Shown one piece after another: positions 30,261-50,704 of a DNA stretch of 64,000 nt. The position numbers were made by a program, and so were the translations under genes. The notes beneath the pieces are model-generated. The model saw only the letters and a list, made by a program, of their open reading frames with translations, was not told the origin of the DNA and ran no database searches. Numbering within the stretch: position 1 is the first letter of the stretch; each line of letters begins with the position of its first letter. The stretch covers positions 1 through 64,000 of the forward strand of contig NZ_JACMYO010000004.1 of assembly GCF_020889685.1 (NCBI RefSeq). Reading direction: 5' to 3'. This DNA comes from Bradyrhizobium oropedii (GTDB lineage Bacteria > Pseudomonadota > Alphaproteobacteria > Rhizobiales > Xanthobacteraceae).

Positions 30261-30277
30261 TGGTATACAAAATGCCA
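30261..30277 (-). promoter_or_regulatory. GntR-type operator, CBS gene promoter
   Basis: TGGTATACAAAATGCCA on the plus strand, 35 bases before the CBS start. On the minus strand it is preceded by TTGACA (30280-30285), with CAGACT 17 bases further, so the motif fills the spacer between a -35 and a possible -10. Confidence 0.75.
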
Positions 30278-30511: not shown

Positions 30512-31825
30512 TCAGGCTGTCTTGGCGCCCGGCGCGGTCTCGGCGGCGGCAGCCTCGTTGCCGTGGATGAAGGCGCGGCGCATCGGCTTGATCACGAATA
30601 GCGCCATCAGCGCCGCGGTGGCATTGAGGGCGACCGCGATCACGAACACCGCCTGCCAGCCATAGCTGGCGGCGACGATGCTGGCGGCCGGCACCAAGAG
30701 CGCAGCGGTGCCCTTCGCCGTGTAGAGCATGCCGTTGTTGGTGGTCGCGAACTTCGAGCCGAAGGTATCGCCGCAGGTCGCCGGGAACAGCGAGTAGATC
30801 TCGCCGAACACGCCGAAATAGACCGCAGTCGCCAGCACGAACACCAGCGGATTGTGGCCCCAGGTCGACAGCGTCAGCAGCATCAGCGCGCCGGTGCCGA
30901 ACGCGATGAACATGGTGTGCTCGCGGCCGATATTGTCGGAGACCCAGCCGAAGAACGGCCGTCCGAACCCGTCGAAGATGCGGTCGAGCGAGATCGCGAA
31001 GGTCAGCGCGGCCATCTGGAAGCCGGCGAGCGAGACCGGCGTCGTCGCGATCTTGTAGTCGTGCGCGATCGGCGCGATCTGCGCCGCCGCCATCAGGCCA
31101 CCGGAGGCGACCATCACGAACACCAGATACATCACCCAGAAGATCGGGCTGCGCAGCACCTGCGGCGGGGTGAAGTCGATCTTGGTCTGCGGGAGATTGA
31201 GCTGCTTCTTCTTCGGCGGGAGCGTCACCGCGGGCTTCTGGATGAAGAAGGCGAGCAGGAACACGATCAGGCCTTGCCCGATGCCGAAATCGAAGAACGC
31301 GGTCTGATAGCCGCTCGAGGCGATCATGTTGGCGATCGGCACCACGGTCAGCGCAGCACCCGCGCCGAAGCCGGCAGCAGTTGCGCCGGCGGCGAGGCCG
31401 CGGCGATCGGGAAACCATTTCAGCGCATTGCCGACGCAGGTGCCGTATACCGAGCCGGCGCCGATGCCGCCGACGACAGCCGCGGCATAGAGCACGGTGA
31501 GTGAAGAGGCGTAGGAGTTCAGCACCCAGGCGAGCGCGATCATGACGCCGCCGAACATGATGACGATCCGCGGACCGTATTTGTCGACGAACCAGGCCTC
31601 CACCGGCACCAGCCAGGTCTCGGTCACGACGAAGATCGTGAAGGCGAACTGGATTGACGCGCGGCCCCAGTGATGCGCGCCGTCGATCGGATCGACGAAC
31701 AGCGTCCAGCCGTACTGCAGGTTCGCGATCATCGCCATGCAGACGATGCCCATGACGAGCTGCAGCCAGCGGAAGCCACTGGACGAAGGTTGAGCTTGTG
31801 TGACGGCAGTATTGCTGGAAACCAT
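30512..31825 (-). CDS. OxlT-like MFS transporter 1 (probable oxalate/formate antiporter)
   Basis: A twelve-helix major facilitator of 437 residues. The start MVSSNTAVTQAQ at 31825 follows GGGAGG; the longer frame would cover the promoter. It resembles the oxalate:formate antiporter group, with the segment QYGWTLFVDPIDGAHHWGRASIQFAFTIF-like first helices, PVEAWFVDKYGPR and GTCVGNALKWFPDRRGLAAG. Exchange of oxalate for formate generates proton-motive force when coupled to decarboxylation. Its promoter carries the shared operator. It is about half identical by eye to the next MFS gene, so the pair is a tandem duplication. Confidence 0.88.
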   Translation of the reverse strand: MVSSNTAVTQAQPSSSGFRWLQLVMGIVCMAMIANLQYGWTLFVDPIDGAHHWGRASIQFAFTIFVVTETWLVPVEAWFVDKYGPRIVIMFGGVMIALAWVLNSYASSLTVLYAAAVVGGIGAGSVYGTCVGNALKWFPDRRGLAAGATAAGFGAGAALTVVPIANMIASSGYQTAFFDFGIGQGLIVFLLAFFIQKPAVTLPPKKKQLNLPQTKIDFTPPQVLRSPIFWVMYLVFVMVASGGLMAAAQIAPIAHDYKIATTPVSLAGFQMAALTFAISLDRIFDGFGRPFFGWVSDNIGREHTMFIAFGTGALMLLTLSTWGHNPLVFVLATAVYFGVFGEIYSLFPATCGDTFGSKFATTNNGMLYTAKGTAALLVPAASIVAASYGWQAVFVIAVALNATAALMALFVIKPMRRAFIHGNEAAAAETAPGAKTA

Positions 31826-31910
31826 CAAATCCTCCCGAGCGCGCCTGGTCTTCGTGAGACCCAGTGTCGCAATTATTGTGGCGTATCGTCGCAAGCGCTT
31901 CGGCGGAGCT

Positions 31911-32067: not shown

Positions 32068-33360
32068 TTACGCCGGCGCCGATTTCGCGACCACGATCTT
32101 GCGCCACGGTTTGAGCACGGCGATCGCGAGTAGCGAGGCGAGGATGTTGGCGCCGGCTGCGATGATGAACACGTTGTCCCAATTGCCCGACGACTGCTGC
32201 ATGTAGTTGGCGATCGGCACCAGGAGCGCGGCGGTGCCCTTCGCGGTGTAGAGCAGGCCCGCATTCGTCGTTGCGAACTTGGCGCCGAACGTGTCGGTGC
32301 AGGTCGAGGGGAACAGCGAATAGATCTCGCCCCAGGCGAAGAACACGAAGCCCGAGAGCAGCACGAACCACACCGGGTCGTGGCCCCAGAGGTAGAGCAT
32401 CCAGATGCCGAAGCCTTCCATGCCGAAGGCGATGAACATCGTGTTCTCGCGGCCGATCATGTCGGAGATCCAGCCGAAGAACGGACGCGTCAGACCGTTG
32501 AGGACGCGGTCGATGGTGGCCGCGAAGGTCACGGCCGTCATCGTCACCGCCATCAGCGTGACCGGCACGCTGTCGACCTTCCAGTCGACCGCGATCGGCT
32601 TCAGGTTTGCCGTCACCATCAGTCCGCCGGCGCCGACGATCACGAACATGAAGTACATCAGCCAAAAGATCGGCTGCCGCAGCACTTCGGTCGGCTGATA
32701 GTTGCGTCGGGTCTGGATGATGTTGGCGTTCTGCACGACGGCCGGGACCTGCCCGGCCTTCGGTGAGAGCAGGAAGAAGGCGAGCAGCACGATGATGATG
32801 CCCTGGCCGAGACCGAAATAGAGGAAGGTGGTCTGGAAACCGGAGTCCTTGATCATCGCCTGGATCGGCGCAACCGTGAGTGCCGAACCCGCGCCGAAGC
32901 CGGCCGCGGTGATGCCCGCGGCAAGGCCGCGCTTGTCGGGAAACCATTTCAGCGCATTGCCGACGCAGGTGCCGTAGACGCCGCCGGCGCCGATGCCGGC
33001 GATGATCATGCCGAGATAGTAGCCGTTGAGCGAGGTCGCGTGCGCGTTGATCGTCCACCCGATCGCGCAGAGGATGCCGCCGATCAGCACGACGAGGCGC
33101 GGACCGTATTTGTCGACGAACCAGCCTTCGACCGGCACCAGCCAGGTCTCGAACAATACAAAGAGCGTAAAGGCCCACTGGATCGACGCGCGATCCCATC
33201 CAAACTTCTTCTGGATGTCGGGGACGAAGAACGTCCATCCGTATTGATAATTTGCGATCATCACCATCGCGGCGACGCCGATCGCGAGTTGCGTCCAGCG
33301 ATAGGTGTCGCTGACCCGTGCGGCCGCGGGGGCCGCAGTTGCCTGAACCATGTCCGACAT
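32068..33360 (-). CDS. OxlT-like MFS transporter 2 (probable oxalate/formate antiporter)
   Basis: A second twelve-helix MFS protein of 430 residues, MSDMVQATAAPAAAR from ATG 33360 after GGGAGGATTA. It has the same family landmarks as transporter 1: YGWTFFVPDIQKKFGWDRA, PVEGWFVDKYGPR and GTCVGNALKWFPDKRGLAAG. Each MFS gene has its own operator-bearing promoter and its own terminator, so they are regulated together but are not an operon. They may differ in affinity or direction of exchange; this is not visible in the sequence. Confidence 0.88.
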   Translation of the reverse strand: MSDMVQATAAPAAARVSDTYRWTQLAIGVAAMVMIANYQYGWTFFVPDIQKKFGWDRASIQWAFTLFVLFETWLVPVEGWFVDKYGPRLVVLIGGILCAIGWTINAHATSLNGYYLGMIIAGIGAGGVYGTCVGNALKWFPDKRGLAAGITAAGFGAGSALTVAPIQAMIKDSGFQTTFLYFGLGQGIIIVLLAFFLLSPKAGQVPAVVQNANIIQTRRNYQPTEVLRQPIFWLMYFMFVIVGAGGLMVTANLKPIAVDWKVDSVPVTLMAVTMTAVTFAATIDRVLNGLTRPFFGWISDMIGRENTMFIAFGMEGFGIWMLYLWGHDPVWFVLLSGFVFFAWGEIYSLFPSTCTDTFGAKFATTNAGLLYTAKGTAALLVPIANYMQQSSGNWDNVFIIAAGANILASLLAIAVLKPWRKIVVAKSAPA

Positions 33361-33420
33361 TAATCCTCCCAGTGCGCGCTTTGTCGTCATTCTGGTTTTG
33401 GCGCGCGCGCGCGATCATCT

Positions 33421-33437
33421 TGGTATCCGATATGCCA
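33421..33437 (-). promoter_or_regulatory. GntR-type operator, MFS 2 promoter
   Basis: TGGTATCCGATATGCCA, 61 bases before the MFS 2 start. The minus strand has TTGAAC (33440-33445) before it and CAAGAT 17 bases after that hexamer. Confidence 0.8.
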
Positions 33438-38286: not shown

Positions 38287-39564
38287 TTACTCGGCCGCCT
38301 GTTTGCGCGGCGGGTCGAGGGCGCCGGAATCGTGGATCTCGGCGACCTGGTGATCTGAGAAGCCGAGCACCTCGCGCAGGATCTCGTCGGTGTGCTCGCC
38401 GAGCAGCGGCGAGCGGGCGACCTCGCTCGGCGAGTCTGACAGCTTGATCGGGTTGCCGACCGAGATGTACTTGCCGCGAGTCGGGTGATCGACCTCGACC
38501 ACGGTGCCGGTCGCGCGCAGCGACTGGTCTTCGGCGATCTCCTTCATCGACAGGATTGGGCCGCAGGGGATGTCGTCCTTGTTGAGGATCTCCATCGCCT
38601 CGAACTTGGTCTTGGTCATCGTCCACTGCTCGATGCGGGCGAAGATCTCGTTGAGGCGCGGCAGGCGGGCCGGCGGCTTGGCGTAGTTCGGATCGGTCTT
38701 CCAGGTCGGCTCGCCGATCACGTCGCAGATCTTCTCCCAGACCGGGGCCTGGGTGATGAAGTAGATGTAGGCGTTCGGGTCGGTCTCCCAGCCCTTGCAC
38801 TTCAGGATGCGGCCGGGCTGGCCGCCGCCGGAATCGTTGCCGGCGCGCGGCACGGCATCGCCGAACGGAATGCCTTCGCCGAACTGGCTGTATTCCTTCA
38901 GCGGGCCGTGGGCGAGGCGCTGCTGGTCGCGTAGCTTGACGCGGGCGAGGTTGAGCACGCCGTCCTGCATCGCCGCGGTGACGCGCTGGCCCTTGCCGGA
39001 ATGGGTGCGGTGATAGAGCGCGGTGACGATGCCGAGCGCGAGATGCAACCCGGTGCCGCTGTCGCCGATCTGCGCGCCGGTGACCAGCGGCAGGCCGTCG
39101 CGGAAGCCGGTGGTCGAGGCGGCGCCCCCGGTGCACTGCGCGACGTTCTCGTAGACCTTGCAATCCTCATACGGACCGGGGCCGAAACCCTTGATCGAGG
39201 CGACGATCATCTTCGGGTTGATGGCCTGGATCTTCTCCCAGGGGAAACCCATGCGGTCGAGCACGCCGGGGCCGAAATTCTCGACCAGCACGTCGCACTG
39301 CTTGATCAGCGCCGTGAGCACTTCCTTGCCCTTCGGGTTCTTGGTGTCGAGCGTGATCGAGCGCTTGTTGTGGTTCAGCATGGTGAAATACAGGCTGTCC
39401 ACGTTCGGGATGTCCTGCAGCTGGCCACGCGTGATGTCGCCAACGCCGGGGCGCTCGACCTTGATCACGTCGGCGCCGAACCAGGCCAGCAATTGCGTGC
39501 AGGTCGGACCCGACTGGACGTGGGTGAAATCGAGAATGCGAACGCCCTTGAGCGCCTTGGTCAT
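38287..39564 (-). CDS. frc: Formyl-CoA:oxalate CoA-transferase
   Basis: A class III CoA-transferase that moves CoA from formyl-CoA to oxalate, making oxalyl-CoA and formate. The start [20 protein letters not shown] gives 425 residues, the family length. The catalytic aspartate appears as D168 in [13 protein letters not shown], corresponding to D169 of the Oxalobacter enzyme. The glycine loop GGGQPG is near residue 245. It lies 60 bp after oxc and is followed by a strong terminator, so oxc-frc form one unit. Confidence 0.95.
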
Positions 39565-39624
39565 ATCTTTTGCTCCGTACTCTGTCTGCCCCTGCACCCG
39601 CAGGGAGTGATGGGGTTTAAGGGG

Positions 39625-41364
39625 TTACTTCTTCTTCTGCAGAACGCTCTGCGGATTGAGGTTGCCGATGCGGCCGCTCTCCGAGCCCGCCGCCGGATCG
39701 ATCACGGCGTTGATCAGCGTCGGCTTGCCGGAATCCAGCGCCGCATTGACCGCACGCTTCAGCTCGTCCGGCGAGGTGGCGTTGACGCCGATGCCGCCGA
39801 ACGCTTCCATCATCTTGTCGTAGCGCGAGCCCTTGACGAACACGGTGGTCGCCGGATCGTCGCCCGCGCTGTTGACGTCGGTGCCGCGATAGATGCCGTC
39901 ATTGTTGAAGATCACGACGCAGATCGGCAGCTTGTAGCGGCAGATGGTCTCGACCTCCATGCCGGAGAAGCCAAAGGCGCTGTCGCCTTCGACCGCAAGC
40001 ACGGGGAGGCCGGTCTCGACCGCAGCCGCGATCGAATAGCCCATGCCGATGCCCATCACGCCCCAGGTGCCGACGTCGAGCCGCTTGCGCGGCTTGTGCA
40101 TGTCGACGACGCCGCGGGCGAGATCGAGCGTGTTGGCGCCCTCGTTGACGAAGATGGTGTCCGGACGCTCCGCGATGATCGTGCGCAGCGCGCCGAGCGC
40201 GCCGTGATAATCCATCGGCGAGGCGTTGCTCATCAGCTTCGGCGCCATCTTGGCGACGTTGTCGTCGCGCTTCTTGGCCACGGTGGCGAGCCAGTCGCTC
40301 GGTGCGGCAGACCAGTTCGCGCCCATCGCGTCGAGGAACGCGGAGACGCAGGAGCCGATATCGCCGACCACGGGGGCGACGATCTCGACATTGGAATCCA
40401 TTTCCTTCGGCTCGATGTCGACCTGGATGAACTTCTTCGGGGCCTCGCCCCAGGTCTTGCCCTTGCCATGCGAGAGCAGCCAGTTGAGCCGGGCGCCGAT
40501 CAGCATCACGACGTCGGCTTCCTTCAGCACGGTCGAGCGCGCCGCGCCTGCGCATTGCGGATGCAGATCGGGCAGCAGGCCCTTGGCCATGCTCATCGGC
40601 AGGAACGGCACGCCGCTCTTCTCGACGAAAGTCTTGATCGCCTCGTCGGCCTGCGCATAGGCGGCGCCCTTGCCGAGGATGATCAGCGGGCGCTTTGCGC
40701 TCTTCAGCACATCCAGCGCGCGCTTGACGGATGACGGGGAGGGGATCTGCTCGGGTGCTGCGTCGATCACCTTGACCAGCGACTTCGCCCCGGCGTCGGC
40801 GTTCATCACCTGCGAGAACAGCTTTGCGGGCAGGTCGAGATAGACGCCGCCCGGACGGCCGGACACTGCGGCGCGGATCGCGCGCGCCAGGCCGATGCCG
40901 ATGTCCTGGGCGTGCAGCACGCGGAACGCCGCCTTGCACAGCGGCTTGGCGATCGCGAGCTGGTCCATCTCCTCATAGTCGCCCTGCTGCAGGTCGACGA
41001 TCTCGCGCTCGGACGAGCCCGAAACCAGGATCATCGGGAAGCAGTTGGTGGTGGCGTGGGCGAGCGCCGTGAGGCCGTTCAGGAAGCCGGGTGCCGACAC
41101 CGTGAGGCAGACGCCGGGCTTCTTGGTGAGGAAGCCGGCGATCGATGCCGCATAGCCGGCATTCTGCTCGTGGCGGAACGAGAGCACGCGAATGCCCGCC
41201 GCCTGGGCCATGCGGCCCAGGTCCGTGATCGGGATGCCCGGCACACCGTAGACGGTGTCGATGCCGTTGAGCTTGAGCGCATCGATGACGAGATGGAAGC
41301 CATCGGTCAGTTCCTGCTCGGTGCCCGGTGCCTCGGACTTCGTAGCGGTATTCAGCATCGGCAT
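39625..41364 (-). CDS. oxc: Oxalyl-CoA decarboxylase
   Basis: A thiamine-pyrophosphate enzyme that converts oxalyl-CoA to formyl-CoA and CO2. The 579 residues show the three-domain TPP fold. The conserved catalytic glutamate is E66 in [11 protein letters not shown], and the TPP/Mg site is [11 protein letters not shown]...FNNDGIYRG (about residues 465-500). It ends with the basic tail QSVLQKKK. The start [13 protein letters not shown] is the only good one. It lies 66 bp after the GntR gene on the same strand, so gntR-oxc-frc may be one transcript. Confidence 0.95.
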
Positions 41365-41430: not shown

Positions 41431-42162
41431 CTAAGTAAACAGTTCTTGACCGTGCGCCTCGACATAGGCGGCAAGGCCAAGCGTGTGATCGCGCGCGCGC
41501 TTTTCGGCGAGCTCGGTGTCGCGCGCCTCCAATGCCTCGATGATTCCAAGATGCTCGGGCAGGGAGGTCGCGGTGCGGTCCTTGCGGCCGATCGTGAGCT
41601 GGCGATAGCCGCGCACATGCAGCAGCAGGTCGTTGGTGAGATCGACCAGCACAGGCGATTCCGACAGCGAGATCAGCGCCTGGTGGAAGGCGATGTTGGC
41701 CTTGGAATACTCCTCGACGTGATCCTGCGGCAGGCGATCGTCGCTGAAGTCCTTGAAGAAGTCGCGCAGCGCCGAGATGTCCTTCTTGCGCGCGGTGGTC
41801 GTGATCAGTCGCGCGGCCATGCTCTCGAGCGCGGCCCAGGCGCGAATCATGTCGACGATCTCCGACTTGGTGCGGCGGACCACGATGATGCCGCGGCGCG
41901 GCACGGTCTTCACGAAGCCGTCCTGCTCAAGCATCGCGATGGCTTCGCGGATCGGCGTGCGGCTGACGCCGAGGCGCTCGGACAGTGCGCGTTCGTCGAG
42001 CATCACGGGCTCGGGCGTCGCGTAGATGTCCATCTTCAGGATGGCTTCCTTCAAGGCCTCATAGGCCTTGTTCTTGAAGCTTGTCTCCGGCGCGATCCGG
42101 ACGATGGCGATATCTGTGTCAGCCATGGTGGGCGACGCCTTGGTCTGTTTCGGGTCAGGCAC
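41431..42162 (-). CDS. GntR/FCD-family regulator of the oxalate genes
   Basis: A 243-residue regulator with an N-terminal winged HTH (about residues 28-95, ALSERLGVSRTPIREAIAMLEQDG) and a C-terminal FCD ligand domain (about 100-230, with conserved metal-binding histidines). The start is GTG at 42162 after GAGGAG; ATG 42126 (MADTDIAIV) is an alternative. The TGGYAT-N5-ATGCCA sites in the divergent promoter and in five others are of the palindromic kind bound by FadR-type regulators. It probably represses until oxalate or an oxalyl/formyl compound binds. Confidence 0.88.
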   Translation of the reverse strand: MPDPKQTKASPTMADTDIAIVRIAPETSFKNKAYEALKEAILKMDIYATPEPVMLDERALSERLGVSRTPIREAIAMLEQDGFVKTVPRRGIIVVRRTKSEIVDMIRAWAALESMAARLITTTARKKDISALRDFFKDFSDDRLPQDHVEEYSKANIAFHQALISLSESPVLVDLTNDLLLHVRGYRQLTIGRKDRTATSLPEHLGIIEALEARDTELAEKRARDHTLGLAAYVEAHGQELFT

Positions 42163-42219: not shown

Positions 42220-42236
42220 TGGCATGCCAAATACCA
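42220..42236 (-). promoter_or_regulatory. GntR-type operator, gntR promoter
   Basis: TGGCATGCCAAATACCA, 58 bases before the GTG of the regulator. The minus strand has TTGACA (42240-42245) three bases upstream, so binding would block RNA polymerase (autoregulation). Confidence 0.8.
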
Positions 42237-42309: not shown

Positions 42310-42326
42310 TGGCATACCAAATGCCA
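42310..42326 (+). promoter_or_regulatory. GntR-type operator, CoA-ligase promoter
   Basis: TGGCATACCAAATGCCA, the best symmetric copy (TGGCAT-N5-ATGCCA), 26 bases before the ligase ATG. TTGACA lies at 42294-42299, so the operator covers the -10 region. Confidence 0.85.
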
Positions 42327-42351
42327 TAAAATTTGTCCCAGGAGGAAGCCG

Positions 42352-44481
42352 ATGTCAAATTCAAAGGATGCGGTCCGCAAAGTTCTCGATGCGGTCAAGG
42401 CCGACAAGCGCACGAGCCTCACCGCGCCCGAAGGCAAGGTGGTTTGCGACGCCTATGGCATCCCGGTGCCGAAGGAAGGCGTTGCCAAGTCGGCCGCCGA
42501 GGCCGCCCGGATCGCCTCCGACATGGGCTTCCCGGTCGTGATGAAGATCGTCTCGCCCGATATTCTCCACAAGACCGAGGCGGGCGGCGTGGTGGTCGGC
42601 GTCAAGAGCGCAGCCGACGCCGAGAAGAGCTACGAGGCCATTCTCGCCAACGCCAGGAAGTACAAGGCCGATGCCAAGATCGACGGCATCCAGGTCCAGC
42701 AGATGCTGGGCGGCGGCACCGAGGTGATCGTCGGCTCGATCACCGACGGCTCGTTCGGCAAGCTGGTCGCTTTCGGCCTTGGCGGCGTGCTGGTCGAGAT
42801 CCTCAAGGACATCACCTTCCGCCTCGCGCCCGCGACCAGGGACGATGCGCTGTCGATGCTCGACGGCATCCAGGCCCATGAGATGCTGAAGGGCGTGCGC
42901 GGCGGTGAGCCCGTCAATCGCGAGGCGCTCGCCGACGTCATCGTCAAGGTGTCGCAGCTGGTCAGCGATTTCCCCGAGATCGTCGAGCTCGACCTCAATC
43001 CGGTGTTCGCCACCAGCAAGAACGCGATCGCGGCCGACGTCCGCATCGTCGTCGACTTCGACTACAAGCCGCGCCCGGCGCCGCGTCCGACCGAGGAGAT
43101 CGTCGCGGCGATGAGCCGCATCATGCAGCCGAAGGGCGTTGCCGTGATCGGCGCCTCCGCCGAGGACGGCAAGATCGGCAACTCGGTGATGAAGAACCTC
43201 ATCAACGGCGGCTACAAGGGCGAGATCTATCCGATCCACCCGAAGGCCGAGGAGATCCTCGGCTACAAGGCCTACAAGAGCGTCAAGGACGTGCCCGGCG
43301 TGATCGACACCGCGGTGTTCGCGATCCCCGCGAAGTTCGTGGCCGGCGCGCTCGCCGAATGCGGCGAGAAGAAAATCCCCGGCGCGGTGCTGATTCCCTC
43401 GGGCTTTGCTGAAGCCGGCGCGCCCGAATTGCAGGCCGAGATCGTCGAGGTCGGCAAGAAGTACAACATCCGCCTGATGGGGCCGAACATCTACGGCTTC
43501 TACTATACGCCGGCCAATCTCTGCGCCACGTTCTGCACCGCCTACGACGTCAAGGGTCACGCCGCGCTGTCGTCGCAGTCGGGCGGCATCGGCATGGCGA
43601 TCATCGGCTTCTCGCGCTCGGCCAAGATGGGCGTGTCGGCGATTGTCGGCCTCGGCAACAAGTCCGACATCGACGAGGACGATCTGCTCGCCTTCTTCGA
43701 GCAGGATCCCAACACCAACCTGATCGCGCAGCACTGCGAGGATCTGAAGGACGGCCGCGCCTTCGCGGAAGCCGCCAAGCGCGTCTCCAAGAAGAAGCCG
43801 GTGGTCGTGCTCAAGGCCGGCCGCACGTCTGCCGGTGCGAAAGCCGCGTCGTCGCACACCGGTGCGCTCGCCGGCAATGACAAGATCTACGAGGACGTGT
43901 TCAAGCAGTCCGGCGTGATCCGCGCGCGCTCGCTCCGGCAATTGCTGGAATTCGCCCGCGGCGTGCCGGTGCTGCCGACGCCGAAGGGCGAGAACGTCCT
44001 GATCATCACCGGTGCCGGCGGCTCCGGCGTGCTGCTGTCGGACTCCGTGGTCGACAACGGCCTGTCGCTGATGCAGATGCCGCCGGATCTCGATGCCGCG
44101 TTCCGCAAGTTCATCCCGCCGTTCGGCGCGGCCGGAAATCCTGTGGATATCACCGGCGGCGAGCCGCCGATCACTTACGTCAACACCGTGAAGCTCGGCC
44201 TGTCGGATGAGCGCATCCACGCGCTGATCCTCGGCTACTGGCACACCATCGTGACGCCGCCGATGGTGTTCGCGCGCAACATGGTCGAGGTGAAGAAGGA
44301 GATGGAGGCCAAGGGCTTCGTGAAGCCGATCGTCGCCTCGCTCGCCGGCGACGTCGAGGTCGAGGAGGCCGCCGAATATCTCTACCAGAACGGCATTCCG
44401 GCCTACGCCTATTCGACCGAACTGCCGGTCGAGGTGCTGGGCGCCAAGTACAAATGGGCGCGCGGCGCGGGCCTGTTGTGA
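42352..44481 (+). CDS. ADP-forming acyl-CoA ligase (acetate-CoA ligase type), proposed oxalate or formate activation
   Basis: A 709-residue NDP-forming acyl-CoA synthetase with fused subunits. An N-terminal ATP-grasp domain (about residues 15-225, GFPVVMKIVSPDILHKTEAGG) precedes the CoA-binding Rossmann domain (about 250-380, GVAVIGASAEDGKIGNSVM). Two succinyl-CoA-ligase-like domains follow (SQSGGIGMA; SSHTGALAGND with the likely phosphohistidine loop). The start MSNSKDAVRKV follows AGGAGG, 26 bases after an operator. Divergent from gntR-oxc-frc, it probably provides oxalyl-CoA or formyl-CoA to prime the transferase cycle, or acts on another acid; this substrate is inferred. Confidence 0.88.
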   Translation: MSNSKDAVRKVLDAVKADKRTSLTAPEGKVVCDAYGIPVPKEGVAKSAAEAARIASDMGFPVVMKIVSPDILHKTEAGGVVVGVKSAADAEKSYEAILANARKYKADAKIDGIQVQQMLGGGTEVIVGSITDGSFGKLVAFGLGGVLVEILKDITFRLAPATRDDALSMLDGIQAHEMLKGVRGGEPVNREALADVIVKVSQLVSDFPEIVELDLNPVFATSKNAIAADVRIVVDFDYKPRPAPRPTEEIVAAMSRIMQPKGVAVIGASAEDGKIGNSVMKNLINGGYKGEIYPIHPKAEEILGYKAYKSVKDVPGVIDTAVFAIPAKFVAGALAECGEKKIPGAVLIPSGFAEAGAPELQAEIVEVGKKYNIRLMGPNIYGFYYTPANLCATFCTAYDVKGHAALSSQSGGIGMAIIGFSRSAKMGVSAIVGLGNKSDIDEDDLLAFFEQDPNTNLIAQHCEDLKDGRAFAEAAKRVSKKKPVVVLKAGRTSAGAKAASSHTGALAGNDKIYEDVFKQSGVIRARSLRQLLEFARGVPVLPTPKGENVLIITGAGGSGVLLSDSVVDNGLSLMQMPPDLDAAFRKFIPPFGAAGNPVDITGGEPPITYVNTVKLGLSDERIHALILGYWHTIVTPPMVFARNMVEVKKEMEAKGFVKPIVASLAGDVEVEEAAEYLYQNGIPAYAYSTELPVEVLGAKYKWARGAGLL

Positions 44482-46813: not shown

Positions 46814-47875
46814 ATGGGTCGGAAGATCGCGATCGTCGGGGCGGGTGCGGTCGGCGGCTACGCCGGCGCGCACATGGCGCAGGCGGGTGAGGACGTCACC
46901 TTCATCGATCCCTGGCCGGAGCATGTCGCGCACATGCGCAAGCACGGTCTGCGAGTCACCCACGCGATGGACGTTGCGGAATTCTCGGTGCCGGTGCGCG
47001 CGCTGCATGTCACCGACGCGCAGCAACTGGCGAAAGAGAAGCCGGTCGATATCGCCTTCGTCTGCATGAAGTCCTACGACACGGCCTGGGCCACGATGCT
47101 GATCCGGCAATATCTGGCGGCCGACGGCTATGTCGTCTCGTTGCAGAACTGTATGAACGAAGAGACCATCGCCGGCATCGTCGGCTGGGGCAAGACGCTC
47201 GGCTGCATCGCGAGCAGCATCACCGTCAATCTGCCGGAGCCTGGCCATATCCATCGTGGCACCGGCAAGGGCGGGGCGGCGCACACCGTGTTTCGCGCAG
47301 GCGAGGTGCACGGCCGCATCACCGCACGGGCGGAGGAAGTTTGCCGGTTGGTTGGCTTCTCCGACAGCGCCAAGGTGACGTCCAACCTCTGGGGCGAGCG
47401 TTGGTCCAAGCTCGTCGCCAACGTGATGGGCAACGGGCTCTCGGCCTGCACGGGTCTAGCGGGCGGCGAGGTGCTGCAAAGCGAGCCGCTGCGCCGCTTC
47501 TCGACCCGGCTCGGCAGCGAGGCGATCCGTGTCGGCCAGGCGCAGGGCTATCAGCTGGAAGAGATCCTGCATCTGCCGCCGGAGACGATCGCCCGGGCCG
47601 GCGAGGGCGACGAGGCCGCGACCCGCGCCTGCGACGAGCAACGCTTTAACGACAGCAAGCGTACCTCATCGGCACAGCGCCCGTCGATGGGCCAGGACAT
47701 CCAGAAGGGCCGGCGCACCGAGATCGAGTTCCTCAACGGTTTCGTGGTGCGCGAGGGCGAGAAGGTCGGCCTCGCCTGCAATGCCAACGCCGCGCTGACC
47801 GACATCGTCAAGCGCGTCGAACGCGGCGAGCTAAAGCCGGATCCCCGGCACATCACCGAGTTGCGGGTGAATTGA
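46814..47875 (+). CDS. Ketopantoate reductase family protein (PanE/ApbA-like)
   Basis: A 353-residue NADPH-dependent oxidoreductase. The N-terminal Rossmann domain starts MGRKIAIVGAGAVGGYAGAH (GxGxxG). The C-terminal helical domain has the catalytic-type lysine and glutamate region (GERWSKLVANVMGNGLSACTG, and NGFVVREGEKVG). It is longer than E. coli PanE (303). Many such paralogs act on substrates other than ketopantoate, so the exact reaction is uncertain. It is a single gene converging on the M50 protease. Confidence 0.85.
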   Translation: MGRKIAIVGAGAVGGYAGAHMAQAGEDVTFIDPWPEHVAHMRKHGLRVTHAMDVAEFSVPVRALHVTDAQQLAKEKPVDIAFVCMKSYDTAWATMLIRQYLAADGYVVSLQNCMNEETIAGIVGWGKTLGCIASSITVNLPEPGHIHRGTGKGGAAHTVFRAGEVHGRITARAEEVCRLVGFSDSAKVTSNLWGERWSKLVANVMGNGLSACTGLAGGEVLQSEPLRRFSTRLGSEAIRVGQAQGYQLEEILHLPPETIARAGEGDEAATRACDEQRFNDSKRTSSAQRPSMGQDIQKGRRTEIEFLNGFVVREGEKVGLACNANAALTDIVKRVERGELKPDPRHITELRVN

Positions 47876-49338: not shown

Positions 49339-49941
49339 CTACAGCAGCTGCCGCACGCCCATGCCATGCATGAAGCGCTCGCGGATCTGCACGGGATCGC
49401 GCCTTGTGGTGCCGGTGCCGGGCTTGTCGTCGATGCGAACGCCGATCAGCGTGGGGCCGGCCGCCCGTTTCGACTGCGCGATCAGCCGCTCGAAATCGTC
49501 CTCGTCGGAGGCCCACGAGCTGTTGGCGAGGCCGCAGGCGATCGCGACCGCGACGATGTCGGTGTGGCCGGCGGCCGGGGTCGGCTGGCTGCCGGTGATC
49601 TGGTAGATGCCGTTGTCCATCACCATCATGGTGAGGTTCTTCGGCGCCAGCGTCGCGATGGTCGAGAGGCAGCCGAGCTGCATCAAGAGCGAGCCGTCAC
49701 CTTCGAGCGCGAACACCCGCCGCTTCGGCTGCGCCAGCGCGACGCCGAGCGCGATCGGAAACGCAAGTCCCATGCTGCCCAGCATATAGAAATTCTGCGG
49801 GCGGTGGCCGGCGGCCCACAGATCGAAGTTGGTGTTGCCGATGCCGCCGATCACGGCCTCGTCCTTCAGCCCGGCGACGAGGCGCTGGGTGAGATCGAAA
49901 CGGTTCATCACCTTGGTGTTGCGCGCGGGAGTGTTGGTCAT
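49339..49941 (-). CDS. TPP-dependent decarboxylase beta subunit (sulfopyruvate/phosphonopyruvate decarboxylase type)
   Basis: The pyrophosphate-binding half of a thiamine enzyme, 200 residues from MTNTPARNTKVMNRF. The TPP motif GDGSLLMQLG...DNGIYQITG is clear. Split two-subunit enzymes of this kind decarboxylate 3-sulfopyruvate or phosphonopyruvate, but the substrate is not determined here. It starts eight bases after the alpha subunit, so the two are one unit. The companion genes (Bug-type binding protein, amidohydrolase, hydroxyacid dehydrogenase) are divergent. Confidence 0.82.
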   Translation of the reverse strand: MTNTPARNTKVMNRFDLTQRLVAGLKDEAVIGGIGNTNFDLWAAGHRPQNFYMLGSMGLAFPIALGVALAQPKRRVFALEGDGSLLMQLGCLSTIATLAPKNLTMMVMDNGIYQITGSQPTPAAGHTDIVAVAIACGLANSSWASDEDDFERLIAQSKRAAGPTLIGVRIDDKPGTGTTRRDPVQIRERFMHGMGVRQLL

Positions 49942-49949
49942 GGCTGATC

Positions 49950-50525
49950 TCACTTGTCGAAGGTCTTGCCGCCGGTCAGCAGCGGCGAGAGGATCAGCGC
50001 CACCGGCGCCTGGGTGGTGACGGCCTGCTTGATCGAGCGGTCGGCGATGAATTCGAGCTCGTCGAGTCTTGTGATGGTGTGATGCTCCATCGCAAGCGAA
50101 TCCAGCACCGGGCGCATGGTGCGGCAGACCAGCGCCTGGCCGTAATTGAACTCACCGAGCGTGCCGCGCTCGGAGACGAACATGATCAGCGGGATCTGGT
50201 AGGGCACCGCGAGCGAGGCCAGCACGTTGGCGAGCGTGGCGAAGCCCGAGGTCTGCATCAGCACCGCGCCGCGCATGCCGGCCATCCAGGCGCCGGAGAC
50301 GATGCCGACGGCCTCTTCCTCGCGCGCAGTCGGAAATGTCGTGAAATACGGATCGGCGTGCAGGTCCTTGATCAGCGTGGTCAGCACCCGGTCGGGCACA
50401 TAGGGCACCAGCTTGATCTCGTTCCGCTTCAGCGTCTGCAGCACGATGCCGTGCCAGGTGGTCGCCGCATCCTGGGACTTATCCTTGGCTTTATCTTTGG
50501 ACGAGGCTTGTTCCGCGGCCGCCAT
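49950..50525 (-). CDS. TPP-dependent decarboxylase alpha subunit
   Basis: The pyrimidine-binding half, 191 residues from MAAAEQASSKDKAKDKSQD; an upstream in-frame Met is in non-conserved sequence. The catalytic glutamate lies in REEEAVGIVSGAWMAG, and the ending LLTGGKTFDK is followed by the beta gene. A basic, lysine-rich N-terminal tail of about 20 residues is unusual. Together with the beta subunit it forms a ComD/ComE-like enzyme. Confidence 0.82.
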   Translation of the reverse strand: MAAAEQASSKDKAKDKSQDAATTWHGIVLQTLKRNEIKLVPYVPDRVLTTLIKDLHADPYFTTFPTAREEEAVGIVSGAWMAGMRGAVLMQTSGFATLANVLASLAVPYQIPLIMFVSERGTLGEFNYGQALVCRTMRPVLDSLAMEHHTITRLDELEFIADRSIKQAVTTQAPVALILSPLLTGGKTFDK

Positions 50526-50704
50526 CCTGCTCTCCCTGCTCGCGCGACGCTGACGGTCGCTTGCCGGTCGAAGCTTGACGCTGACCATGTGATTGTCAAC
50601 ATGTCGCGTCCGCAACGCGACCTGCGGAATTCGGCCATCGCAGCGCCGAACCGCCGTGCGATACAGGCGGTAACGATAGAACGATCAAGGGACGGGAGGC
50701 GTCA

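Follow-up and report, generated by a model that had tools for sequence, protein, structure and literature searches.

A 64,000-nucleotide stretch of the Bradyrhizobium oropedii genome (contig NZ_JACMYO010000004.1, positions 1 to 64,000; hereafter the window) carries a gene, acd, for a fused ADP-forming acyl-coenzyme A (CoA) ligase, divergent from the oxalate genes gntR-oxc-frc (Table 1). We favour, with modest confidence, the prediction that Acd is an ADP-forming formate:CoA ligase (formyl-CoA + ADP + Pi <-> formate + CoA + ATP) in an oxalate regulon. Membership of acd in this regulon is supported by operator and position; from context we infer the enzyme's substrate and direction and the binding of the regulator to its operators. 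A fused ligase gene in this divergent position had been described in a sequence-only reading of the same DNA, and the open reading frame, Pfam and NCBIfam all agree with it.

An operator shared by acd and oxalate genes

In the window the palindrome TGGYATNNNNNATRCCA is present in four copies (at 30261, 33421, 42220 and 42310), compared to a mean of 0.00 over 100 shuffles, and at seven places across the 9.0-Mb genome, compared to two for a reversed control pattern. Both copies between gntR and acd were kept in 30 of 30 same-family acd loci read (20 on one strand and 10 on the other). The operator that the sequence-only reading had placed at acd is thus real, and the GntR/FCD protein is presumed to bind it and its other copies.

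Outside the window, one operator lies between a pair of CBS-like and PanE-family genes and iclR-gcl (L172:2966-4484, on contig C5 of the source genome, G000), as would be expected if oxalyl-CoA were reduced to glyoxylate. The PanE-family gene at this site is a candidate oxalyl-CoA reductase; PanE2 of M. extorquens, which was characterised in PMC8411744, is described there as a putative oxalyl-CoA reductase. A further good match lies immediately before sucC in a run of mdh-sucC-sucD genes (L173:4551; G000:C115:6350-6366), and the seventh adjoins an apparently unrelated gene. Since the reversed control pattern was also found twice, these last two sites may be due to chance.

Acd belongs to the NDP-forming acyl-CoA synthetases

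Acd contains, in order, the Pfam domains ATP-grasp_5 (15-234), CoA_binding_2 (263-383), Succ_CoA_lig (401-536) and Ligase_CoA_2 (549-709), each above its cut-off. Judged by sequence, it is surely a beta-alpha fused member of the nucleoside diphosphate (NDP)-forming acyl-CoA synthetase (ACD) superfamily. The highest summed score among solved relatives was that of the NDP-forming acetyl-CoA synthetase ACD1 (4xyl; alpha 382 plus beta 184 bits), presumably from Ca. Korarchaeum cryptofilum, which has all of the domains of Acd but consists of separate subunits and uses acetate, and for which we know of no oxalate context. H502 of Acd pairs with H254 of the ACD1 alpha subunit in the alignment, and H73 is the beta-side histidine; we take H254, and with it H502, to be the catalytic, phosphorylatable alpha histidine and H73 to be its beta counterpart. 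Both H502 and H73 were kept in 99 of 99 aligned Acd orthologues; a tight motif for the beta-side histidine caught 97 of these, and the remaining two read IQHKTE.

The ADP-forming 3-hydroxypropionate and 4-hydroxybutyrate CoA ligases (9y43, 8wzu) are fused single chains with the same domains, 9y43 also in beta-alpha order, but they serve another pathway, and Acd reaches 463 and 548 bits where the cut-offs are 1300. Its four best-matching CoA-ligase models are equivalogs of characterised acetate, 3-hydroxypropionate or 4-hydroxybutyrate CoA ligases, and it fell below the curated cut-off of each: TIGR02717 (472.7 bits, cut-off 567.15), NF045494 (487.2, cut-off 1200), NF045492 (462.8, cut-off 1300) and NF045493 (548, cut-off 1300). 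The superfamily is therefore sure and the substrate is not. Among the Pfam matches of Acd at E <= 0.001 there was neither a GNAT family domain, which is fused in Pat protein acetyltransferase, nor the AMP-binding (ANL) domain of the AMP-forming oxalyl-CoA synthetase (EC 6.2.1.8), the enzyme of ATP-dependent activation in oxalate degradation; Acd is thus classed as neither. Three further members of the ACD superfamily are encoded in the source genome, with 30-39% identity to Acd.

That Acd acts instead on acetate, glycolate, glyoxylate or succinate, in side reactions or to fill a general acyl-CoA donor pool for Frc, would fit its best solved relatives, the acetate, 4-hydroxybutyrate and 3-hydroxypropionate ligases, and the succinate-CoA-ligase-like genes that follow acd in several loci. 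We regard this as improbable, as Acd misses the four characterised models, its clade is isolated (orthologues at 82-100% identity within the family, next match at 37%) and its common neighbours are of the oxalate type.

Linkage of acd to oxalate genes within and beyond the family

We sampled 198 genomes of the source organism's family and found acd orthologues in 42 and oxc in 145; the sole further acd match at E <= 1e-100 was the one at 37%. As the sequence-only reading had suggested, the same gene pairing was looked for in relatives, and oxc was present in 41 of the 42 acd-positive genomes, with the lower match coordinates of the two genes 2259-4594 bp apart in all 41. The exception, G040, keeps gntR (84%) and frc (86%), and its oxc slot holds a thiamine diphosphate (ThDP) enzyme 25% identical to Oxc. 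The acd count used 44 of 46 rows, leaving out the 37% match (G052) and the second half of a split gene in G189; the oxc count left out a 38% match of G068 and second pieces in G122 and G137. In their assemblies, oxc of G122 (C1:2663428-2665159) and acd of G189 (C1:4472027-4474146) are each split over two pieces.

Beyond the family, the best 80 of at least 582 confirmed acd stretches, in order of similarity to acd from G203, span Proteobacteria, Actinobacteria and metagenome-assembled genomes (MAGs) labelled Acidobacteria, Deltaproteobacteria and Rokubacteria. Of these 80 loci, 71 hold frc (leaving aside a truncated Frc at the edge of L111), which lies directly upstream of acd (<1 kb, same strand) in 51, and 66 hold either oxc (34) or a lyase-like ThDP gene (32). 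Five of 16 plasmid matches were also read as named records, one of which, from C. metallidurans, has no usable annotation. The gene orders in the other four are gntR-oxc-frc-acd-sucCD-fdhF in Skermanella rosea, ThDP-frc-acd-OFA transporter in Streptomyces fungicidicus, ThDP-frc / oxlT-acd-sucCD in Phyllobacterium zundukense and frc-acd, with no ThDP gene in view, in Methylobacterium nodulans; all four annotate acd only as 'acetate--CoA ligase family protein'. In P. zundukense a phosphoenolpyruvate carboxylase gene follows the succinate-CoA-ligase-like genes, a neighbour that fits malate activation for assimilation as well as a part in the oxalate cycle.

The linkage of acd to oxalate genes is thus no Bradyrhizobium accident. 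We found no support for a chance neighbourhood in which acd has no role in oxalate metabolism, and with linkage in Proteobacteria, Actinobacteria and Acidobacteria MAGs and operators common to all 30 loci such a reading is scarcely credible.

acd is exchanged with two other modules beside oxc

We read 27 oxc loci without acd and found a formyltransferase-like gene with a formate-tetrahydrofolate (THF) ligase gene in 16 and a second frc in 11, with module families assigned from one representative each. In each of these 16 loci, the formyltransferase-like gene is followed by the formate-THF ligase gene. Across the 145 oxc-positive family genomes, the formyltransferase-like gene was present in 68, acd in 41 and the second frc in 32 (rows at 76-100% identity, 32 places; rows at 64-67% were ordinary Frc and were dropped), while no genome had two modules and four had none. 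Exactly one module was therefore found in 141 of 145, and the four others come from incomplete assemblies (66-89%). Counting only genes that lie at most 12 kb from oxc leaves 62 of the formyltransferase-like genes, 41 of the acd genes and 31 of the second frc genes. A tree of 37 Oxc rows, of which 36 belong to the family, requires no fewer than 8 changes of module label, where 2 would be the minimum. Neither a formyltransferase-like gene nor a formate-THF ligase gene was found in 98 acd loci (the best 80 and 18 others) at E <= 1e-40. Outside the family, in views of about 1.5 kb on each side, the formyltransferase-like gene stood beside frc in 15 of the 28 genomes having it (337 sampled), together with formate-THF ligase in 10 of the 15.

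The closest PDB relative of the formyltransferase-like protein is the hydrolase domain of 10-formyl-THF dehydrogenase. From this family we infer that it may act on formyl-CoA, and the pair is possibly a folate-based route for this ester. In a FastTree tree rooted on the distant YfdE, the second Frc forms a clade (local support 100) with E. coli YfdW, which is a known formyl-CoA:oxalate transferase, and no other Frc row belongs to it. The window Frc, compared with that at L061:11532-12785, falls outside this clade, and the glycine loop of the second Frc reads NAGGGGQPG, differing from that of the window Frc. The two nevertheless exceed the same NCBIfam cut-off, so that a single name may stand for two different CoA-donor specificities.

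Going by their families, Acd, the formyltransferase module and the second Frc would have formyl-CoA and formate in common, not oxalate, and would be equivalent to one another. Because formyl-CoA/formate seems common to all three, formate is preferred over oxalate as the substrate of Acd. A direct ADP-forming oxalate:CoA ligase making oxalyl-CoA would agree with the linkage of acd to Frc and a ThDP enzyme and with its place in the oxalate regulon, and priming by another route to oxalyl-CoA, acetyl-CoA:oxalate CoA transfer, has already been proposed in the consulted portion of PMC3720670. Acd is, however, replaced by formyltransferase-like and formate-THF ligase families that are not expected to make oxalyl-CoA, which leaves this a serious but doubtful alternative. 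The sequence-only reading had Acd activating oxalate or formate; its part in oxalate catabolism holds up on operator, position and cross-phylum linkage, and a formyl-CoA/formate role is suggested by the module exchange, while direct oxalate activation has become the less likely half of the proposal.

A lyase-like ThDP enzyme occupies the oxc slot in many loci

A lyase-like ThDP gene stands in place of oxc at, for example, L043:11445-13199, L040:12306-14057 and L041:11458-13197, as in the 32 loci counted above (within L080-L159). The best PDB match of its product is 2-hydroxyacyl-CoA lyase (255 bits), followed by 8vzk, a chain deposited as oxalyl-CoA decarboxylase (231 bits), and by Oxc 7ayg (178 bits) and 2c31 (160 bits). 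The best NCBIfam models were 'acetolactate synthase' (431-478 bits, cut-off 587) and then 2-hydroxyacyl-CoA lyase (334-352 bits, cut-off 600), and it passes neither. In alignments read by eye, L-Q stands at the position of Oxc Y120-E121, two residues on the Oxc list taken from a section of PMC10192776.

The two enzymes nearly exclude each other. The lyase-like gene was found in 0 of the 34 genomes whose acd locus includes oxc, and canonical Oxc in 2 of 31 whose acd locus includes the lyase-like gene (31 of the 32 lyase-type genomes were searched, L087 being left out); no canonical Oxc was found in G040, G246 or G456. Of 14 genomes with neither gene at the acd locus, eight have Oxc elsewhere and six have neither at the thresholds used, one of them holding a 41% relative. 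Four of the 198 family genomes encode the lyase-like enzyme, and none of the four has Oxc; one of them carries acd, the other three the formyltransferase-like gene, on the same contig. On a tree of Acd (99 rows, built by a quick method, with 28 of 96 inner branches weak) the label changes between Oxc and lyase-like at least 13 times. The glycine loop SGGGQPG was kept in Frc of 3 of 3 lyase-type loci compared, and some lyase-type loci have OFA or oxlT antiporter neighbours.

The simplest reading of these sequences is that the lyase-like enzyme takes over the function of Oxc and is a candidate second class of oxalyl-CoA decarboxylase; it could also catalyse a different cleavage that yields formyl-CoA, and its residues urge caution. 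Its likeness to 2-hydroxyacyl-CoA lyase and the L-Q pair would also suit lyase-type operons that degrade a 2-hydroxy acid activated by Acd, with the oxalate loci as a side branch, but the repeated label changes, the near exclusion with Oxc, the kept Frc loop and the antiporter neighbours make this highly unlikely. Separately, three very small alphaproteobacterial genomes of 1.4 Mb (L199, L200 and L202) were seen to combine frc and the formyltransferase-like gene with the terminal part of a lyase-like ThDP gene.

Proposed role of Acd

In the proposed scheme Frc would transfer CoA to oxalate, Oxc would decarboxylate oxalyl-CoA to formyl-CoA, formate would be oxidised or exported, and Acd would couple the formyl-CoA pool to ATP. 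Part of the oxalyl-CoA is probably reduced to glyoxylate by a reductase and would pass through glyoxylate carboligase into assimilation, as suggested by the PanE-family and gcl genes at the operator. An ATP-linked supply would then be needed, because each assimilated oxalyl-CoA takes a CoA ester out of the Frc cycle and because formyl-CoA is short-lived (half-life in quenched reaction mixtures of 1.9 h, compared to 29 h for oxalyl-CoA, according to a supplementary figure legend of PMC3720670). Whenever oxalyl-CoA is drawn off or formyl-CoA hydrolysed, Acd would spend ATP to replenish the formyl-CoA pool from formate; were Frc to use another CoA donor, for example succinyl-CoA, Acd would instead run towards ATP.

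A surplus of ATP from the plain Frc-Oxc cycle was ruled out by stoichiometry, one formyl-CoA being made and used per turn. With no surplus formyl-CoA in that cycle, an ATP gain needs oxalyl-CoA from another CoA donor. A wider reading, tentative and in our judgement unlikely, is that oxalate operons have a formyl-CoA slot with three unrelated fillers, namely a YfdW-type transferase, a formyltransferase with formate-THF ligase, and an ADP-forming formyl-CoA ligase. The last two would run towards ATP because the divergent Frc would take CoA from another donor (the gene-less EC 2.8.3.2), so that the thioester would be conserved by substrate-level phosphorylation, and the lyase-like ThDP enzyme would be a second oxalyl-CoA decarboxylase class.

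Several observations weigh against a formate ligase in the oxalate regulon. The formyltransferase-like gene and formate-THF ligase could simply assimilate formate, in which case their exclusion with acd would say little about the substrate of Acd, and Oxc is absent in 12 of the 80 family genomes with the formyltransferase-like gene (three have the lyase-like enzyme and nine neither). Related genomes are not independent in the module counts, and the starred branches of the Oxc tree, taken alone, force fewer label changes (acd 3, formyltransferase module 3, second frc 1). Exclusion is weaker outside the family: acd and a YfdW-type frc stand together in two Cupriavidus loci (L110 and L133), and the acd-positive genome G456 carries a 58% formyltransferase-like gene at another site. 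Among the best 80 loci, nine have no frc, five with a contig end <400 bases from acd and four without, and neither oxc nor any close lyase-like gene was seen in six of the 80 genomes, in each of which the acd locus lies on a contig <21 kb. Lastly, an AlphaFold2 model of Acd from a 12-row alignment was poor (mean predicted local distance difference test score 60.2, predicted template modelling score 0.56) and unfit for pocket analysis.

Other genes of the window

The window holds oxc, frc and oxlT equivalogs, each above its cut-off, and thus a type II oxalate catabolism system. Its Frc and Oxc agree with the known formyl-CoA:oxalate CoA-transferase/Oxc pathway, whereas the added ADP-forming ligase and the position of Frc outside the YfdW clade set it apart. 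Elsewhere, the formyltransferase-like and formate-THF ligase genes were seen to follow frc directly, for example at L052:11386-12312 and L056:12425-14119, and in 14 more loci of L044-L068.

A PanE/ApbA-family reductase gene lies a few kb from acd at 46814-47875 (TIGR00745, 183.7 bits, cut-off 141.35); it is kept close to acd in L072 (91%), and no operator match stands beside it. At 49339-50615 are two short ThDP subunits akin to the beta and alpha subunits of sulfopyruvate decarboxylase, neither of which reaches those cut-offs; the unnamed model PRK06163 is passed by the first. A gene resembling TctC, as judged by eye, lies divergent from the pair.

Table 1. Features of the acd region, in window coordinates.
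Feature	Coordinates	Strand	Basis or description
acd, fused ADP/NDP-forming acyl-CoA ligase	42352..44481	+	ATG 42352, stop 44481; 709 aa, reading frame intact
Shine-Dalgarno-like AGGAGGA of acd	42340..42346	+	sequence
Operator nearer acd, TGGCATACCAAATGCCA	42310..42326	.	pattern counts, conservation
Operator nearer gntR, TGGCATGCCAAATACCA	42220..42236	.	pattern counts, conservation
gntR, GntR/FCD-family regulator	41431..42162	-	Pfam
oxc, oxalyl-CoA decarboxylase	39625..41364	-	TIGR03254 1027.8 bits, cut-off 739.4; closest solved structure 7ayg (1055 bits)
frc, CoA-transferase III	38287..39597	-	TIGR03253 754.7 bits, cut-off 504.2; clade apart from E. coli YfdW; loop NDSGGGQPG
Operator upstream of oxlT	33421..33437	.	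pattern match
oxlT, oxalate/formate MFS antiporter	32068..33390	-	TIGR04259 649.6 bits, cut-off 335
Second oxalate/formate MFS antiporter	30512..31894	-	TIGR04259 646.9 bits, cut-off 335
Operator upstream of CBS-like gene	30261..30277	.	pattern match
CBS-domain-like protein, 144 aa	29792..30226	-	sequence read by eye; no NCBIfam match

Implications for oxalate metabolism

The sequence-only reading had known oxalate pathways rely on Frc or an AMP-forming synthetase, which is too narrow, since the consulted portion of PMC3720670 reports acetyl-CoA:oxalate CoA-transferase activity of YfdE/UctC in vitro. Like acd, yfdE/uctC is an accessory gene near oxc, and it is proposed there as a primer of oxalate catabolism, but its product is a CoA-transferase that works without ATP and belongs to an unrelated family; with priming already proposed for that transferase, the role of primer is known and the type of enzyme would be the new element. 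No ADP-forming formyl-CoA ligase was described in the titles and abstract openings of a mostly open-licence literature, which is weak evidence of absence. According to a section of PMC10192776, no genes are known for two enzymes needed in pathway schemes, oxalate CoA-transferase (EC 2.8.3.2) and formyl-CoA hydrolase (EC 3.1.2.10). For the handling of formyl-CoA that these schemes lack, Acd and its two replacement modules offer concrete candidates, present in many soil bacteria, and a natural ADP-forming formyl-CoA ligase, if this is what Acd is, would also be a useful formate-activating enzyme. The presence of acd in oxalate-type clusters of many unrelated bacteria points to a putative, so far unrecognised part of bacterial life on oxalate.

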